A stretch of DNA of 8,575 nucleotides from Desulfobacteraceae bacterium (GTDB taxonomy: Bacteria > Desulfobacterota > Desulfobacteria > Desulfobacterales > Desulfobacteraceae). The notes below the pieces were generated by a model. It had not been told where the DNA came from. It worked only from the letters and a program-made list of their open reading frames with translations, and made no database searches. The stretch spans positions 1-8,575 of the forward strand of contig PIVQ01000281.1 in the NCBI GenBank assembly GCA_003354055.1. The letters run 5' to 3'. The translations under genes were made by a program, and so were the position numbers. This document shows, piece by piece, positions 2,961-8,575 of this stretch. Position 1 is the stretch's first letter. Every line of letters starts with the position of its first letter.

Positions 2961-3728
2961 ATGAGAATTTTGGTATGCATAAAACCTGACATTTCGGGAA
3001 GAGAGATCGGCCCCTTTGAAACCCTGGCTCTGGAGGCCGGGTTATGTCTGAAAGAATCTAACATCACAGCGGATGAGAAAGCGTGTCAGCTGGATGTGGT
3101 CACAGTCGGTCCGTCCCATTGGGCAGATTGTATTTACCGGGCATTGGGCATGGGGGCGGATAGCGGGATTCATATTCTGATAGATGACCCGGAAGATTAT
3201 GGCGGGCTTGTCCCGGCCGCAGGGATTGCAGGGCTCCTGGCTGCTTTTGCAAGCTCTCCTGATATCTGTGAGCCCTATGATCTGATTCTCACCGGGGTGA
3301 TGTCCCAGGATCTCATGGCCGGGCAAACCGGCCCGATGCTGGCTGAATATCTGGATATTGCCTGTGCCACAGCAGTTGTAGAGGCGGAATGCCGGGATAC
3401 TATTCTGGTCGCTCAGCGGGAATGGGAAGGGGGATACAGGGAAACTCTTGATCTGGAATTGCCGGCCCTTATTTCTGTGCAGACCGGATTCTATACCCCG
3501 CGGTATCCTACCCTGTCTCATATGCTTAAAGCAAAGAATAAACCCGTCGCCGTTCTAAATAAAAAGGATCTTGAAACAGGCTGCCCCCTGTCCGGGCAGG
3601 CCCCAAGGGAATGCTTCTCAGGTTTAGGCGTTCCCACACAGACACGGGAAGGGAAAATAATTAATGGAACACTTCAGGATCAGGTCCGGGCTTTTCAAAT
3701 TTTTTTAAAACAGAGGGCTTTGATATGA
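2961..3728 (+). CDS. etfB: Electron transfer flavoprotein, beta subunit
   Basis: This 255-residue EtfB carries bound AMP in the family and, with EtfA, accepts electrons from acyl-CoA dehydrogenases in the cytoplasm. The N-terminus MRILVCIKPD is the classic EtfB start. An in-frame TGA at 2955-2957 lies just upstream, so ATG 2961 is the first possible start even though no Shine-Dalgarno is visible. Further family marks are the VGPSHWADCIYRALGMGAD segment (the usual ..LR.ALAMGAD), LILTGVMSQDLMAGQTGPMLAEYL, and R153-E-W-E-G-G-Y-R-E161 followed by LPALISV and P180-R-Y-P183. The segment between CIKPD and the PFETLALEAGLCLKE helix is shorter than in typical EtfB. It overlaps etfA by 4 nt (ATGA), indicating coupled translation and equimolar subunits. 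Control probably comes from the operator at 2900-2918. Confidence 0.93.
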   Translation: MRILVCIKPDISGREIGPFETLALEAGLCLKESNITADEKACQLDVVTVGPSHWADCIYRALGMGADSGIHILIDDPEDYGGLVPAAGIAGLLAAFASSPDICEPYDLILTGVMSQDLMAGQTGPMLAEYLDIACATAVVEAECRDTILVAQREWEGGYRETLDLELPALISVQTGFYTPRYPTLSHMLKAKNKPVAVLNKKDLETGCPLSGQAPRECFSGLGVPTQTREGKIINGTLQDQVRAFQIFLKQRALI

Positions 3729-4753
3729 GAACAGGTTTGAAGCCAATTCTGGTGGTTGCAGAAACCCGGAACAACGAGATCCGGCCCGTAACCTGGGAAC
3801 TTGTGGCTGCCGCGGCCCGGATCCAGACACTGACGGAAGATAGAGACCTTTCCCCTAAGATCCAAATCCTGGTGCCGGGTGAACAGCCACGGGACATGGC
3901 CCGGGAAATTTCCCGGAAAACGGGTCTGGAGGCTGTTTCATTGTCCTGGCCCTGTGCAGTGACCCCGGAATCATTAAAACAGGGACTGGTACCTGCGCTG
4001 AAAGAACTTGATCCAGGCTATCTCCTGTTCGGCCATTCCACTCTGGGCAGGGAGGTCGCTCCCGGGCTTGCAGCCAGGCTTGGTGCTGCCGCCGTGTCAG
4101 GGGTAACACAGATCCTGTGTGATTCAGACGGAATCAGCTTTGCAAGGCCTGCAATGGATAATACCCGGATTCAGATGGTCCGGCCCTGTCACGCCTCCTG
4201 CTGTGTTATGACCCTGGTTCCCGGGGCATTTGCAGTAGAAAACGGGATGCCGAAGAAGGAATCAAATACGGAAGACCAAGCCTGTAAGGTTACGGAAAAA
4301 GAGATTTGCGTGGATGCGCTGGCACCCAAAACCACGCGCAGAGAAATGAAAGCGCCGTCCGGAGACGATCAGGGCACAGGAACCGCAGGGCTTAAATCAG
4401 CCAATATTGTTGTGACAGCCGGCCGGGGCATTGGTGACCGGGAAAATCTGGAGAAAATAATTGAATTTGCAGGATGCTTTTCAAATGCAGCAGTAGGCGC
4501 CTCCCGTCCTTTGGTGGATCAGGGATGGATCCCTTATGGGCACCAGGTGGGAATTACAGGCACCACGGTGACACCGGAACTTTACATTGCCTGCGGTATT
4601 TCCGGCTCATCTCAGCACCTGGCCGGTATGTCCGGGGCGAAATGGGTGGTCAGCATCAATACGGGGTCGGATGCCCCTATTTGCCGGAATTCAGACCTTT
4701 GCATCCAGGCGGATGTGCTTGAATTTATCGAGGCCTTTTTGGAGTTAAAATAA
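3725..4753 (+). CDS. etfA: Electron transfer flavoprotein, alpha subunit
   Basis: This 342-residue EtfA starts at ATG 3725, overlapping the etfB stop in ATGA. The N-terminal domain includes LLFGHSTLGREVAPGLAARLGAA, the usual segment that packs on EtfB. The C-terminal FAD-binding domain is intact: G233-R-G235 after ANIVVTA, A259-S-R261 with D265, the H273-Q-V-G-I-T-G279 loop, PELYIACGISGSSQHLAGM (284-302) and I311-N312 before A317-P318-I319. The last motif is INTGSDAPI, where most EtfA proteins have IN-K-D-x-x-APIF, so the Lys-Asp pair is replaced. A linker of about 45 residues (roughly 178-223), rich in charged residues, separates the domains. The electron partner is likely one of the flanking ACADs upstream and a membrane ETF:quinone oxidoreductase not seen here. 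The stop codon overlaps operator site 2. Confidence 0.93.
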   Translation: MRTGLKPILVVAETRNNEIRPVTWELVAAAARIQTLTEDRDLSPKIQILVPGEQPRDMAREISRKTGLEAVSLSWPCAVTPESLKQGLVPALKELDPGYLLFGHSTLGREVAPGLAARLGAAAVSGVTQILCDSDGISFARPAMDNTRIQMVRPCHASCCVMTLVPGAFAVENGMPKKESNTEDQACKVTEKEICVDALAPKTTRREMKAPSGDDQGTGTAGLKSANIVVTAGRGIGDRENLEKIIEFAGCFSNAAVGASRPLVDQGWIPYGHQVGITGTTVTPELYIACGISGSSQHLAGMSGAKWVVSINTGSDAPICRNSDLCIQADVLEFIEAFLELK

Positions 4754-4773
4754 CGAACATTCGTTCCTATTAT
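4745..4773 (+). promoter_or_regulatory. Putative promoter with embedded operator site 2
   Basis: TTAAAA (4745-4750, 4/6 to the sigma-70 -35 consensus) and TATTAT (4768-4773, 5/6 to the -10 consensus) are separated by exactly 17 nt. The operator fills that spacer, the classic geometry for repression by steric block. The -35 lies in the last codons of etfA. An alternative promoter, TTGACT (4776-4781) with TAATAT (4800-4805, 18-nt spacer), lies just downstream and would put the operator upstream of the -35 box. The first arrangement fits a repressor better, and only this region separates etfA from the next operon. It is a prediction from consensus matching. Confidence 0.45.
4752..4770. promoter_or_regulatory. 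TetR-type operator upstream of the ACAD operon (site 2)
   Basis: AACGAACATTCGTTCCTAT contains the inverted repeat AACGAA-CA-TTCGTT (4752-4765), with perfect 6-bp arms around a 2-bp centre. It begins inside the etfA TAA stop and is nearly identical to site 1 (differences at the third, eighth and sixteenth positions). The TetR gene at 6086 is the second gene of the operon this site controls, so autoregulation is likely. Having two matching sites at the only two sizeable gaps in 6 kb supports real function. Confidence 0.7.
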
Positions 4774-4858: not shown

Positions 4859-6052
4859 TTGGATTTTCAGATTTCAGACCGTATTCAGACCATCGTATCC
4901 ATGATTAACGAGTTTGTGGACAATGAACTCATCCCCCTAGAGCCGGAATTCATGACCCGCTCTTTTAAAGAGATGCTGCCCGTACTCAGGGAAAAACAGG
5001 CCATGGTCAGAAAAATGGAGCTGTGGGCGCCTAATTTCCCATCGGACTGCGGCGGCATGGGCCTTTCCCTTCTGGAGCACGGCCTGGTCTCCGAAGCTCT
5101 GGGGCGCTCCCCTCTGGGACATTACGTATTCTGGTGCCAGGCACCGGATGCGGGAAATGTGGAAATTCTTCATGCCCACGGAACGGATGCACAGAAGCAA
5201 CGGTGGCTCCATCCCCTGGTGGCGGGTGAGATTCGTTCATGCTTTGCCATGACGGAAGTTGATATGCCCGGGTCAAACCCGGTGATGCTGGAAACCACAG
5301 CTGTTAAAGATGGGGACGATTACATCATCAATGGCCATAAATGGTATACGTCGTCTGCTGACGGGGCTGCCTTTTCTATTGTGATGGCCGTGACCAATCC
5401 CGAGGCCTCGAAGTATCTCCAGGCCTCAATGATTATTGTGCCCACGGACACCAAAGGATTTAACCGGATCAGGAACATTCCGGTCATGGGCCATGAGGGA
5501 GATGATTATTTCAGCCATGCTGAGATCATGTTTGAAGGGTGCCGGGTGCCACAGGCGAATCTTCTGGGCGCCGAGGGGCATGGTTTTGTCATGGCCCAGG
5601 AACGGCTGGGACCCGGGAGAATCCACCATTGCATGCGCTGGCTGGGAATCTGCAGGCGTGCCTTTGATCTCATGTGCGGAAGGGCCAATGCCCGGGTTAT
5701 TTCTCCGTCCGGTAAAACCCTGGCCACCCGGCAGACCATCCAGAACTGGGTATCCGAATCAGCCGCAGAGCTGGAAGCCGCACGGCTGCTGACCCTGAAC
5801 TCCGCCTGGCAGATCGACAATGTCGGGGCGGCCGAGGCCAGGGATTCCATTTCCATGATCAAATTTGTAGTGGCCAATACCATGGGCAGGATTGTGGACC
5901 GGGCACTCCAGGTCCACGGAGGCCTTGGCATGACTGATGATACCATCCTGGCCTGGTTTTTTCGCCACGAACGGGCGGCCCGGATTTATGACGGGGCAGA
6001 CGAGGTGCATAAGACGTCCCTGGCCAAAAGAATATTGAAAACCTACGTCTGA
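4859..6052 (+). CDS. ACAD10/11-type acyl-CoA dehydrogenase family protein (LvaC-like)
   Basis: This 397-residue protein starts at TTG 4859, with AAGGAG (4846-4851) at an ideal 7-nt spacing; the nearby ATG at 4854 is in another frame and stops after 16 codons. Domains run in ACAD order: N-terminal helices (1-125), middle beta-domain with M131-T-E-V-D-M-P-G-S139 and INGHKWYTSS, then the C-terminal helical domain with QVHGGLGMTDD. The stretch R249-L-G-P-G-R-I-H-H-C-M-R260 and the ending Y377-D-G-A-D-E-V-H384 are hallmarks of the ACAD10/11 branch (human ACAD11 has the same RLGPGRIHHCMR and a DGPDEVH ending). D378 occupies the place of the usual catalytic Glu. ACAD11 and Pseudomonas LvaC convert 4-phosphoacyl-CoA to enoyl-CoA by phosphate elimination. 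The kinase two genes downstream supports the same role here. Ordinary FAD-dependent dehydrogenation remains possible. Confidence 0.88.
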   Translation: MDFQISDRIQTIVSMINEFVDNELIPLEPEFMTRSFKEMLPVLREKQAMVRKMELWAPNFPSDCGGMGLSLLEHGLVSEALGRSPLGHYVFWCQAPDAGNVEILHAHGTDAQKQRWLHPLVAGEIRSCFAMTEVDMPGSNPVMLETTAVKDGDDYIINGHKWYTSSADGAAFSIVMAVTNPEASKYLQASMIIVPTDTKGFNRIRNIPVMGHEGDDYFSHAEIMFEGCRVPQANLLGAEGHGFVMAQERLGPGRIHHCMRWLGICRRAFDLMCGRANARVISPSGKTLATRQTIQNWVSESAAELEAARLLTLNSAWQIDNVGAAEARDSISMIKFVVANTMGRIVDRALQVHGGLGMTDDTILAWFFRHERAARIYDGADEVHKTSLAKRILKTYV

Positions 6053-6070
6053 TCTCTATTTGGATCAGAC
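6047..6070 (+). other. Hairpin at the ACAD/TetR gene junction
   Basis: GTCTGATC (6047-6054) and GATCAGAC (6063-6070) form a perfect 8-bp stem with an 8-nt loop. The left arm contains the ACAD stop codon (6050-6052), and the right arm ends just before the TetR Shine-Dalgarno (AAAAGGAG, 6075-6082). There is no following T-run, so it is not a typical terminator. It could mark an mRNA processing point or lower expression of the regulator relative to the enzyme. The role is inferred. Confidence 0.4.
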
Positions 6071-6085
6071 CCGCAAAAGGAGTTT

Positions 6086-6787
6086 ATGAACTACAGCGAA
6101 TTTAAAAAGCTTTACGGCGCCCGGGGGAAAGATATCGCAAGAACGGTCTATTTGGCCAACCAGGATGTCATGCGCATTAAAAAAGAGAAGACTGCCGTGG
6201 CCAACCTGGAAAAGATCCTTACGGCTGTATTCAGCATTACCTATAAAAAAGGGTTCCAGGCCATGAGCATGCGGGACCTGAGTCTGAAAACCGGGATGAG
6301 TCTGGGTGCCCTTTACGCCTATTTCCCGGGTAAAGAGGAACTTTTGGCCATTATCCAGGACCAGGGCAGGGTCATGGTCAAGGAGACCCTCGGCCAGTTT
6401 GCGCAGGAACATGATCATCCCCTGGAAAAGCTTCGTTCTGCGATCCGGGCCCATATTTTTTTGTCGGAGCTGTTCCGGCCCTGGTTTTACTTTACCTTTA
6501 TGGAGGCCAGGAACCTGAAACCTGCAGGTTTTGAAGCGGTCAAGGCCATGGAAGAGCATACCCAGAAGATCCTCAGCGATATCCTGGAACTGGGTGAGGA
6601 ACAGGGGGTGTTCAAACCCGGGAACCATGATATTACCGCCTGCATGATCAAGGCGCTTCAGCAAGAGTGGTACTTAAAGCGGTGGAAGTATACCAAGCAG
6701 AAAATCACTGTGGATCAGTTTGCCGATCATGTGCTGGACATGGTGGAAGGTTTTTGTCTGTTAACCCCCTCACCCGTTAACGCATAA
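6086..6787 (+). CDS. TetR/AcrR-family transcriptional regulator
   Basis: This 233-residue regulator starts at ATG 6086 after AAAAGGAG with a short 3-nt gap. The TetR DNA-binding domain lies at about residues 44-90: ILTAVFSITYKKGFQA, then the helix-turn-helix MSMRDLSLKTGMSLGALYAYF and PGKEELL, matching the family pattern (..GtlY.yF..KeeLl). Residues 1-43 form an unusual N-terminal extension rich in Lys/Arg, before the normal start of the domain. The remainder (about 95-233) is a helical ligand-binding and dimerisation domain. TetR proteins next to fatty-acid genes usually repress and release DNA on binding acyl-CoA. Likely targets are the two operators at 2900 and 4752, giving autoregulation plus control of etfBA. 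The ligand is unknown, though an acyl-CoA of the encoded pathway is most plausible. Confidence 0.9.
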   Translation: MNYSEFKKLYGARGKDIARTVYLANQDVMRIKKEKTAVANLEKILTAVFSITYKKGFQAMSMRDLSLKTGMSLGALYAYFPGKEELLAIIQDQGRVMVKETLGQFAQEHDHPLEKLRSAIRAHIFLSELFRPWFYFTFMEARNLKPAGFEAVKAMEEHTQKILSDILELGEEQGVFKPGNHDITACMIKALQQEWYLKRWKYTKQKITVDQFADHVLDMVEGFCLLTPSPVNA

Positions 6788-6789
6788 GG

Positions 6790-7875
6790 ATGGAAAATTT
6801 GGAAGATAGTAAGATAATTGACAAAGCCACCCGGATCAGACCGGGAGAAGAGATAGATGTTCGGTCCATAAATTCTTTTTTACGGGATGCGATTCAGGAT
6901 TTGTCCGAAGACGTTGAGATCACCCAGTTTCCCAGTGGGTTTTCTAACCTGACCTATGAGATCCGCAGTGGTGACCGCAGGATGGTGCTGCGCCGCCCCC
7001 CCATCGGTGCCAAGGTGGACAAGGGCCATGACATGGAAAGAGAGTTCCGGGTGTTATCCGCCCTTTACCCTGCCTTTCCCAGATGTCCGCGCCCCCTTGC
7101 CTATTGCGATGACAGCGACCTTATTGGAGCGCCTTTTTTTGTCATGGAAAAACTGTCCGGGATCATCCTTCGAAAGGACCCGCCACAAGGCCTTGAGTTT
7201 TCTAAGACACAGGCAAGGCAGCTTTGCGAAAATCTCACCGATACCTTGGTTGCGATCCACTCCATCGACATGGAAGCCACAGGGCTTTCATCCATCGGAA
7301 AGCCTGCAGGATATGTTAAACGCCAGGTTACGGGCTGGAGCAGCCGCTATCGCAAGGCAAAAACTGAAGATGCGCCGGACTGTGAAGCGGTTATGGAATG
7401 GCTGGCTGAAAAAATGCCGGCAGATACGGATTCCCCTGTAATGGTTCACAACGACTACAAGATGGATAACCTGGTCCTTGATCCGGCACAGCCGGACCGA
7501 ATCACAGGAATTCTGGACTGGGAAATGGCCACCTACGGAGATCCCCTCATGGATCTTGGCAACAGTCTGGCCTATTGGGTAGAAGAGAATGACCAGGACG
7601 AGCTACAGATGATGCGGACCATGCCCACAAATCTGCCCGGCGCTCTGACCCGGCAGCAGATCATAGACAGATACGGGGAAAAGACCGGCCGGGATGTGGC
7701 AGAGTTTGACTACTACTATTGTTTCGGCCTGTTCCGCCTGGCGGGCATCGCCCAGCAGATCTACAACCGGTACTTCCACGGACTGACAAAAAACAAGCGG
7801 TTTGCCATGCTTATCTTCGGCGTTCATGCCCTGGAGAAAACCGCGATGCAAATCATTGAAAAATCCAAACTATAG
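6790..7875 (+). CDS. APH-fold kinase, ACAD10/11 N-domain type (LvaA-like)
   Basis: This 361-residue aminoglycoside-phosphotransferase-fold kinase resembles the domain fused ahead of the ACAD in human ACAD10/11. The N-lobe shows SGFSNLTYEI (G50-N53, nucleotide loop), V66-L-R-R-P-P71 and a KGHDMEREFRVL helix. The C-lobe has the catalytic loop H220-N-D222-Y-K-M-D-N227 and the metal-binding L242-D243-W-E followed by YGDPLMDL. Catalytic Asp222, Asn227 and Asp243 are all present, so it should be active. In LvaA and ACAD11, the kinase phosphorylates the 4-hydroxyl of a 4-hydroxyacyl-CoA. True drug resistance is unlikely given the neighbours. ATG 6790 lies 2 nt after the TetR stop with AAGG abutting it; TTG 6799 has the same AAGGA at about 8 nt and is a credible alternative start. 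The stop codon overlaps the next gene's Shine-Dalgarno. Confidence 0.85.
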   Translation: MENLEDSKIIDKATRIRPGEEIDVRSINSFLRDAIQDLSEDVEITQFPSGFSNLTYEIRSGDRRMVLRRPPIGAKVDKGHDMEREFRVLSALYPAFPRCPRPLAYCDDSDLIGAPFFVMEKLSGIILRKDPPQGLEFSKTQARQLCENLTDTLVAIHSIDMEATGLSSIGKPAGYVKRQVTGWSSRYRKAKTEDAPDCEAVMEWLAEKMPADTDSPVMVHNDYKMDNLVLDPAQPDRITGILDWEMATYGDPLMDLGNSLAYWVEENDQDELQMMRTMPTNLPGALTRQQIIDRYGEKTGRDVAEFDYYYCFGLFRLAGIAQQIYNRYFHGLTKNKRFAMLIFGVHALEKTAMQIIEKSKL

Positions 7876-7886
7876 GAGATCCAATT

Positions 7887-8575
7887 ATGAGTGATTTTAA
7901 TCTAACCGGAAAAGTTGCCGTGATCACAGGCGCCAGCCGTGGGATCGGTCTGGCAGCAGCAAAAAAACTGGCCCAGTGCGGTGCTACCTGCATCCTGGTC
8001 AGCCGTAAGATGGAAACCCTTGAAGCGGCTGCAGCCGAGATCACAGGGGCAGGGCACAAGGCCCTGGCCATGGCCTGTCATACCGGATATCCTGAGCAGA
8101 TTCAGGCCCTGTACGAAAAGATAGTGGAGACCCACGGCCGCCTGGATATCCTGGTCAACAATGCCGCCACCAACCCCCATTTCGGTGAGATGATCGATGC
8201 GGATGCGGGTATCTGGGACAAGACTCTGGACGTGAATATCAAAGGTCCCTTCTTCATGACAAAATATGCCGTCCCCCTGATGACCGAAGGCGGGGCCATA
8301 GTTAATGTGGCATCGGTAAATGCGGTCCGTCCCGGATTCTTTCAGGGAATTTACTCGGCCACCAAGGCAGCCCTGGTCAACATGACCCAGACCCTGGCAA
8401 GGGAACTCGCCCCCAGAGGTATCCGGGTCAATGCCCTGCTGCCCGGCCTTACCAATACCAAGTTTGCCTCTGCCATTATTTCCTCTGAAGAGATCAGCCA
8501 GCATGCCCTGGCCCAGATTCCCATGGGACGGTATGCCGAGCCTGAAGAGATGGCAGGCTCCATTTTGTACCTGGT
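7887..8575 (+). CDS. Short-chain dehydrogenase/reductase, 3' end cut (LvaD-like role possible)
   Basis: The frame is open from ATG 7887 to the window end (229 codons of an expected roughly 250), so only the C-terminus is missing. AGGAG (7874-7878) lies 8 nt upstream and overlaps the kinase stop, showing tight operon packing. Classical SDR motifs are complete: T14-G-A-S-R-G-I-G21 (Rossmann nucleotide loop), N91-N-A-A94, catalytic S143, Y156-S-A-T-K160, and a LLPGLTNTKFA segment after the active site. The S17-R18 pair and the basic V-S-R-K after the second strand are compatible with NADP(H), but this is only suggestive. In the levulinate pathway an SDR (LvaD) reduces the 4-oxoacyl-CoA to the 4-hydroxyacyl-CoA that the kinase uses. 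Here it could run that step or oxidise another hydroxyacyl-CoA. Confidence 0.88.
   Translation, partial: MSDFNLTGKVAVITGASRGIGLAAAKKLAQCGATCILVSRKMETLEAAAAEITGAGHKALAMACHTGYPEQIQALYEKIVETHGRLDILVNNAATNPHFGEMIDADAGIWDKTLDVNIKGPFFMTKYAVPLMTEGGAIVNVASVNAVRPGFFQGIYSATKAALVNMTQTLARELAPRGIRVNALLPGLTNTKFASAIISSEEISQHALAQIPMGRYAEPEEMAGSILYL

Follow-up and report, generated by a model that had tools for sequence, protein, structure and literature searches.

The window analysed here, a stretch of 8,575 nucleotides from contig PIVQ01000281.1 of a Desulfobacteraceae bacterium, carries on its forward strand a run of genes encoding the beta (EtfB, 2961..3728; Pfam ETF, 81.8 bits) and alpha (EtfA, 3725..4753; Pfam ETF_alpha, 107 bits) subunits of an electron transfer flavoprotein (ETF), an acyl-CoA dehydrogenase (ACAD, 4859-6052), a TetR-family regulator (6086-6787; Pfam TetR_N and TetR_C_24), an APH-fold kinase (6790-7875) and a short-chain dehydrogenase/reductase (SDR, 7887-8573; Pfam adh_short, open at the contig end). 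These genes represent a widespread, ETF-linked variant, found in anaerobes, of the module known from ACAD11 and the Lva proteins. We consider it likely that they form a catabolic module, probably controlled by a single TetR regulator, that passes hydroxyacyl-CoAs, most likely 4-hydroxyacyl-CoAs, into beta-oxidation through phosphorylation followed by phosphate elimination. This reading is built on gene content, conservation, residues, phylogeny and an enriched palindrome, from which the catalytic steps, the substrate and the DNA binding are predicted. ACAD11 itself spends ATP to remove a hydroxyl group from fatty acids before their breakdown. The original prediction for this DNA had described an ACAD11/Lva-type pair as separate genes, closely packed with an SDR around a TetR gene, and gene content, residues and the intergenic gaps of 33, 2 and 11 nt (ACAD-TetR, TetR-kinase and kinase-SDR, respectively) confirm that description. 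It had overlooked the linked ETF, the palindrome common to both operons and the phosphatase found in relatives; since etfBA (2961-4753) is part of the unit, the unit is larger than had been stated. The named organisms among those carrying the closest homologues of the kinase are Desulfobacterales and their kin, a lineage of anaerobes, and the host is most likely a sulfate-reducing Desulfobacterales bacterium.

The ACAD, translated from a TTG start into 397 amino acids with the N-terminal, middle and C-terminal Pfam ACAD domains, is ACAD11/LvaC-like and predicted to act as a 4-phosphoacyl-CoA phosphate lyase. It contains the motifs RLGPGRIHHCMR and YDGADEVH, which had been taken as an ACAD10/11 signature, and the active-site residues bear this assignment out. 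Thus, R249, R254, H257, C258, M259, R260 and D378 align with R626, R631, H634, C635, M636, R637 and D753 of mouse ACAD11, and all seven are unchanged in the 43 related Desulfobacterota ACADs (43/43), which are 68-95% identical to the window protein. According to the accessible text of PMC12440821, D753 is the catalytic residue of the mouse enzyme, R626, H634 and R637 hold the 4-phosphate in a model, and replacement of any of these three by Ala or Leu impaired ACAD activity most severely and led to the build-up of the phospho-intermediate. The closest solved relatives of the window ACAD are the ACAD11 entries 8v3u, 2wbi and 8v3v, followed by 4hr3.

The kinase (361 amino acids; Pfam APH, 186 bits) is of the ACAD11 kinase-domain type and is predicted to be a hydroxyacyl-CoA kinase. 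Its HxDxxxxN motif reads VHNDYKMDN, with D222 and N227 as catalytic residues; these two and R178 correspond to D220, N225 and R176 of the mouse protein, in keeping with the full set of catalytic residues previously noted for this kinase. The Asp, the Asn and the equivalent of mouse R176 are kept in 43 of the 44 related kinases; the remaining row, from the locus denoted L004, is gapped at these positions because its contig ends within the kinase gene. The closest solved relatives are 9o56, then the ACAD11 kinase domain (30% identity with that of mouse) and then 3dxp, with antibiotic kinases well behind. The database copy of the window kinase, P0001, begins three residues downstream of the open reading frame call.

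The overall similarity to ACAD11 is lower than these residues might suggest. The window ACAD shares 39% identity with the ACAD domain of mouse ACAD11, compared with 53-55% for the ACADs of four plasmid-borne bacterial operons; between LvaC and the ACAD11 domain, 56% is reported in the accessible text of PMC11342911. Trees were built with mouse ACAD11, 4hr3, 9o56 and plasmid operons as comparators, and likeness to LvaA, LvaC and LvaD was judged by description rather than by sequence. In a first ACAD tree, comprising the window, 16 of the 43 Desulfobacterota rows, the plasmid proteins of L089 and L090, and an outgroup of eight other ACADs from the same loci, the 28 motif-bearing rows formed a single clade (99/98), set against few outgroups. 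This clade contained one subgroup with mouse ACAD11, 4hr3 and the plasmid operons (96/88) and another with the Desulfobacterota and Gemmatirosa that included the window (98/94; Desulfobacterota alone, 100/99). A second tree omitted L087, L089, L090 and the degenerate ACADs described below, and had the second ACAD of some loci (6 rows) as sole outgroup, which makes it a weak test of clade membership; it recovered the Desulfobacterota branch and the mouse ACAD11 branch at 100/100 each, the Gemmatirosa grouping at 83/81, and a Rhodococcus protein outside both branches (90/82). In both trees the window ACAD fell outside the branch that unites mouse ACAD11 with the ACADs of the plasmid operons, in the neighbouring one. 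The Desulfobacterota ACADs are therefore a separate, internally well conserved branch beside that of mouse ACAD11. The phylogenetic check proposed with the original prediction thus places this ACAD in one clade with mouse ACAD11 but outside its branch, and a close equivalence to LvaC and ACAD11 is not supported. In the kinase tree (the window and 16 of the 44 Desulfobacterota rows), the Desulfobacterota kinases grouped with their counterparts from plasmid operons of ACAD, kinase and phosphatase genes (96/97), with no resolved order within the group. Since the kinases group with the plasmid operons and the ACADs do not, the kinase type is shared and its ACAD partner belongs to a separate branch.

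To place the window among its relatives, gene maps were built by tblastn for 45 loci, comprising the window, L001-L004 and 40 further places chosen from 65, mostly by taking the top scores first; the remaining 25, some of them partial, fall outside the sample. Neighbours were counted within 8 kb of the kinase in the 44 related loci, several of which stop at contig ends. An ACAD was present in 43 of the 44, which excludes a chance pairing of ACAD and kinase, and a TetR gene in 35; EtfB was found in 30, EtfA in 26 and any SDR in 20. Genes for other steps of beta-oxidation were less frequent, namely 3-hydroxyacyl-CoA dehydrogenase (15/44), enoyl-CoA hydratase (10/44), acyl-CoA synthetase (7/44) and thiolase (3/44), the first three confirmed by Pfam in one example each and thiolase named by eye from the sequence; a second ACAD occurred in 7 loci. 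The Pfam scan detected no acyl-CoA synthetase among the proteins of the window, whose contig ends inside the SDR gene. In the cultured organism Desulfopila aestuarii DSM 18488 (L001), a same-strand run encodes EtfB, acyl-CoA synthetase, EtfA, ACAD, TetR, kinase, SDR and 3-hydroxyacyl-CoA dehydrogenase; together with a neighbouring histidine phosphatase gene on the opposite strand, this module spans positions 3564-12861 of its locus. The nearest locus, L004, from a Desulfobacterales metagenome-assembled genome (G004), encodes an ACAD 95% identical to that of the window and shares its gene order from a MoxR-type ATPase through the kinase. The kinase is common in the order of G004: of 194 genomes sampled, 60 encode a homologue at E up to 1e-60.

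EtfAB belongs to the module. At least one of its subunits is encoded within 8 kb of the kinase in 32 of the 44 loci, and about 1.3% would be expected at a random place (estimated from 273 ETF-domain matches in 168.9 Mb of 33 genomes, counting an ETF pair within 8 kb), a figure that leaves out of account the tendency of ACAD and ETF genes to cluster in general and to that extent counts against our reading. With the window ETF as query, no match was obtained in any of 11 plasmid loci, a search that diverged ETFs could escape, and none of the nine annotated plasmid loci lists an ETF in an annotation that is incomplete by the collection's own account. The hosts of these plasmids are mostly aerobes. 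Among solved structures, EtfA matched best to 5ol2 (130 bits; human 1efv, 109 bits) and EtfB to human 1efv (76 bits; 5ol2, 46 bits).

The palindrome AACGAACGTTCGTT precedes both etfB and the ACAD gene. The pattern AACGAANNTTCGTT has an exact match at 4752-4765, 5' of the ACAD gene (AACGAACATTCGTT), and a match with one mismatch at 2900-2913, 5' of etfB (AATGAACGTTCGTT); two or more such matches arose in 5 of 200 shuffles of the window. Allowing up to two mismatches, the palindrome was found near the start of etfB, the phosphatase or the ACAD gene in 29 of the 45 loci, the window included. These sites numbered 32 in 32,675 positions near the starts versus 18 in 723,551 positions elsewhere in the same loci (odds ratio 39), and their consensus, with A-rich and T-rich flanks, is AAAAAAACGAACGTTCGTTCTTTT. 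In L004 the same two sites lie before etfB and before the ACAD gene. The palindrome is probably the operator of the TetR protein.

In the mechanism that we propose, the SDR would interconvert keto- and hydroxyacyl-CoA, the APH-fold kinase would phosphorylate the 4-hydroxyl group with ATP, and the ACAD, with its flavin adenine dinucleotide, Asp378 as base and Arg249, His257 and Arg260 as phosphate cradle, would expel the phosphate to yield a 2-enoyl-CoA that could enter ordinary beta-oxidation; for the kinase and ACAD steps, residues and the assays of homologues point the same way. The starting compound would be a 4-oxo- or a 4-hydroxyacyl-CoA. TetR would probably repress both etfBA and the ACAD-kinase operon through AACGAACGTTCGTT and be released by an acyl-CoA. 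EtfAB, for its part, might serve the dehydrogenations of the next round of beta-oxidation or keep the flavin of the ACAD in the right redox state.

Several further points weigh against this reading. With 39% identity to mouse ACAD11 and a place in a neighbouring branch, the chemistry of the ACAD may have drifted, and the cradle residues extend beyond the ACAD11-type clade, being kept in the plasmid ACADs of L089 and L090, which have a variant motif and fall outside the clade with weak support and long branches. As for the regulator, the palindrome pattern was derived from the window site, so the exact match in the window is not independent; 16 of the 45 loci lack the palindrome by the pattern used, 4 of the 29 palindrome-bearing loci have no TetR gene, and TetR genes also stand beside the ACAD or the kinase in L086 and L088, both without an ETF match. 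Furthermore, the ACAD10/11 reaction needs no added electron acceptor (PMC11342911) and involves no net redox change (PMC11342911, PMC12440821), as stated in the accessible parts of these reports, so the linked ETF is left unexplained by the borrowed mechanism.

This last point invites a reading in which the ACAD is coupled to the ETF, oxidising a 4-phosphoacyl-CoA, expelling the phosphate and passing electrons to EtfAB to leave a dienoyl-CoA or, in reverse, drawing electrons from EtfAB so that phosphate leaves an unsaturated 4-phosphoacyl-CoA; we give it a low probability. It would fit the presence of ETF genes in Desulfobacterota loci (32/44) and not in plasmid loci (0/11), the two palindromes, which apparently put etfBA and the ACAD under common control, the separate branch formed by the Desulfobacterota ACADs (100/99 and 100/100 in the two trees), and the 6 of 33 genomes with just four ETF-domain matches, that is, about two pairs. 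An ETF docks on ACADs by a loop of EtfB, and the loop PRYPTL of the window EtfB resembles such a docking loop; however, the strict docking-loop pattern was found in only 15 of 34 EtfBs, and either of two patterns in 21. The phosphate-cradle residues are moreover unchanged, other dehydrogenases, for instance the second ACAD of 7 loci, could be the partners of the ETF, and 12 of the 44 loci, some of them cut by contig ends, have no ETF gene within 8 kb. The comparison with plasmids is itself open to diverged ETFs overlooked by the window query, and the nearest plasmid ACAD, that of Gemmatirosa (L085), comes from a locus without an ETF match. A redox-coupled reaction of the ACAD11 type, in which ATP activates the hydroxyl group and a dedicated EtfAB takes up transient flavin electrons or supplies electrons, is put forward here as a tentative and rather improbable idea.

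The kinase might instead take another hydroxyacyl-CoA as its substrate, such as a 3-, 5- or omega-hydroxy form or a cyclic one, with the ACAD as the matching lyase. The distinct ACAD branch and the variation of the accessory genes between loci would suit this possibility, and the 4-hydroxy assignment, borrowed from homologues rather than drawn from substrate evidence, counts in its favour and against our own reading; we nevertheless regard it as unlikely, given that identical residues occupy the positions that bind the 4-phosphate in the model of mouse ACAD11 (PMC12440821, accessible text). An ordinary acyl-CoA dehydrogenase working with its ETF beside an unrelated small-molecule kinase is very improbable. 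The linked ETF and a top NCBIfam match to acryloyl-CoA reductase, at 189 bits with a cut-off of 640, could be read that way, but all 43 related ACADs carry Asp as catalytic base and a complete HCMR cluster, the nearest solved ACAD structures are those of ACAD11, the kinase is nearest to 9o56, ACAD11 and 3dxp, far ahead of antibiotic kinases, and the two genes lie together in all but one of the related loci. A phosphorylation-driven route for 4-hydroxyacyl-CoAs thus remains the reading that we prefer.

The remaining components vary more between loci. The SDR matched NCBIfam PRK07035 with 343.5 bits over 229 residues, below the curated cut-off of 373 for a protein that is incomplete at the contig end, and the full-length SDR of Desulfopila (L001) clears that cut-off with 374.9 bits. 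The best match of the window SDR in the PDB was DHRS4 (178 bits). DHRS4 and ACAD11 are both peroxisomal, and the match hints, as a lead only, at a eukaryotic DHRS4-ACAD11 partner pair.

A histidine phosphatase is encoded within 8 kb of the kinase in 26 of the 44 loci, and one further locus (L072) also has a match. No such gene was seen in the window, and the L001 phosphatase found no match in the nearest relative, G004, at E up to 1e-10, a search that a diverged phosphatase could escape; as a query it matched in 3 of the 8 genomes searched. Being unseen in the window and not found in its nearest relative, the phosphatase looks like an accessory rather than a core part of the module.

LvaB, the small helper of the Pseudomonas system, had been reported as not visible here. 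None was seen in the window, but a contig that stops inside the SDR gene could not by itself show its absence. DUF6285, which we take to be the family of LvaB, occurred in 1 of 33 genomes searched, out of 63 known to carry the kinase; the search of relatives for pathway genes that had been suggested yielded acyl-CoA synthetase and thiolase in a few loci and a DUF6285 gene in this single genome. There, in a Desulfarculaceae locus (L079, 1471-2876), the DUF6285 gene follows an APH kinase gene of another type, possibly as an LvaAB-type pair. A plasmid search with a DUF6285 protein as query returned a single record, from Thermus, and a literature search for DUF6285 found no account. According to the accessible text of PMC11342911, a kinase and an ACAD from Burkholderia pseudomallei could each stand in for the corresponding ACAD10 domain in vitro, and LvaB goes unmentioned in the main text of that paper; in a levulinate-associated cluster of Pseudomonas citronellolis, the region analysed, as described in the accessible part of PMC6692424, contains a histidine phosphatase gene beside the lvaA homologue and is without lvaB. 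Taken together, the cluster without lvaB and the domain swaps mean that a missing LvaB is no obstacle, and by analogy they suggest that LvaB is not needed.

Upstream of etfB, the window encodes a MoxR-type AAA+ ATPase cut by the contig start, a CoxE-type VWA protein (161-1582; the pair spans 1-1582) and a degenerate ACAD-like protein (1610-2776), the latter two on the forward strand and assigned from open reading frame calls and Pfam. The ATPase and VWA genes precede the degenerate ACAD gene in L004 as well (L004:2590-4933); pairs of this type are known from cofactor or metal insertion. The predicted fold of the degenerate protein is that of a complete ACAD (predicted local distance difference test score, pLDDT, 94.2; template modelling score 0.80 to isovaleryl-CoA dehydrogenase), but neither the QVHGG motif nor the catalytic-base region is there, and the C-terminal Pfam domain usual in ACADs is missing. 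Of 194 genomes of the order, 27 encode a homologue, and the kinase is present in 22 of these 27 (Fisher p 6e-9, ignoring kinship); among the 45 loci the gene stands beside the kinase only in the window and L004. The protein may be a non-catalytic partner subunit.

These findings extend the ATP-driven removal of hydroxyl groups, as in ACAD10/11 and Lva, to sulfate reducers, in which ATP is dear. A separate ACAD branch that has kept the cradle unchanged and is linked to an ETF for which the published mechanism has no need poses a clean question, namely whether ACAD and ETF exchange electrons, and this is directly testable in the cultured D. aestuarii DSM 18488, which carries most of the pathway in one run. 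If true, such an exchange would be new: the removal of water, redox-neutral in the published reaction, would become an energy-linked step, and no such step is known for ACAD10/11 or LvaC. A literature search found no account of an ACAD-kinase-ETF module in Desulfobacterota.

Among known systems, mammalian ACAD11 and ACAD10 are fused kinase-ACAD proteins (PMC12440821, PMC11342911), and no activity on plain saturated acyl-CoAs is reported for the mouse enzymes in the accessible text of PMC12440821. The window proteins have the same two domain types, with cradle and catalytic residues identical to those of mouse ACAD11, but are encoded by separate genes linked to ETF, TetR and SDR genes, and differ from ACAD11 in their modest identity (ACAD, 39%; kinase, 30%) and in the neighbouring branch of the ACAD. 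The lva operon of Pseudomonas putida (LvaA-LvaE) likewise combines a separate kinase and ACAD with an SDR, whereas ETF and TetR genes are present here and DUF6285 is confined to 1 of 33 kinase-bearing genomes. Closer in content is the P. citronellolis LA18 cluster, with kinase, ACAD and SDR homologues and no LvaB in the region analysed, and with a histidine phosphatase matched in 26 of the 44 Desulfobacterota loci; it differs in that no phosphatase was seen in the window and that the accessible part of PMC6692424 mentions no ETF. Plasmid operons with ACAD, kinase, histidine phosphatase and SDR genes from Azospirillum, Ideonella, Pseudoalteromonas, a Rhodobacteraceae bacterium and Streptomyces (L080, L081, L082, L084 and L086) encode kinases of the same tree group, 44-49% identical to that of the window, and L080 has a PRK07035 SDR; in contrast, their ACADs belong to the mouse ACAD11 branch (35-40% identity to the window ACAD), they gave no ETF match, and a LysR gene lies upstream in L080-L082, with a TetR gene in L086. 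The kinase (Q63VL0) and ACAD of Burkholderia pseudomallei, compared by description from the accessible text of PMC11342911, are likewise a split bacterial pair.

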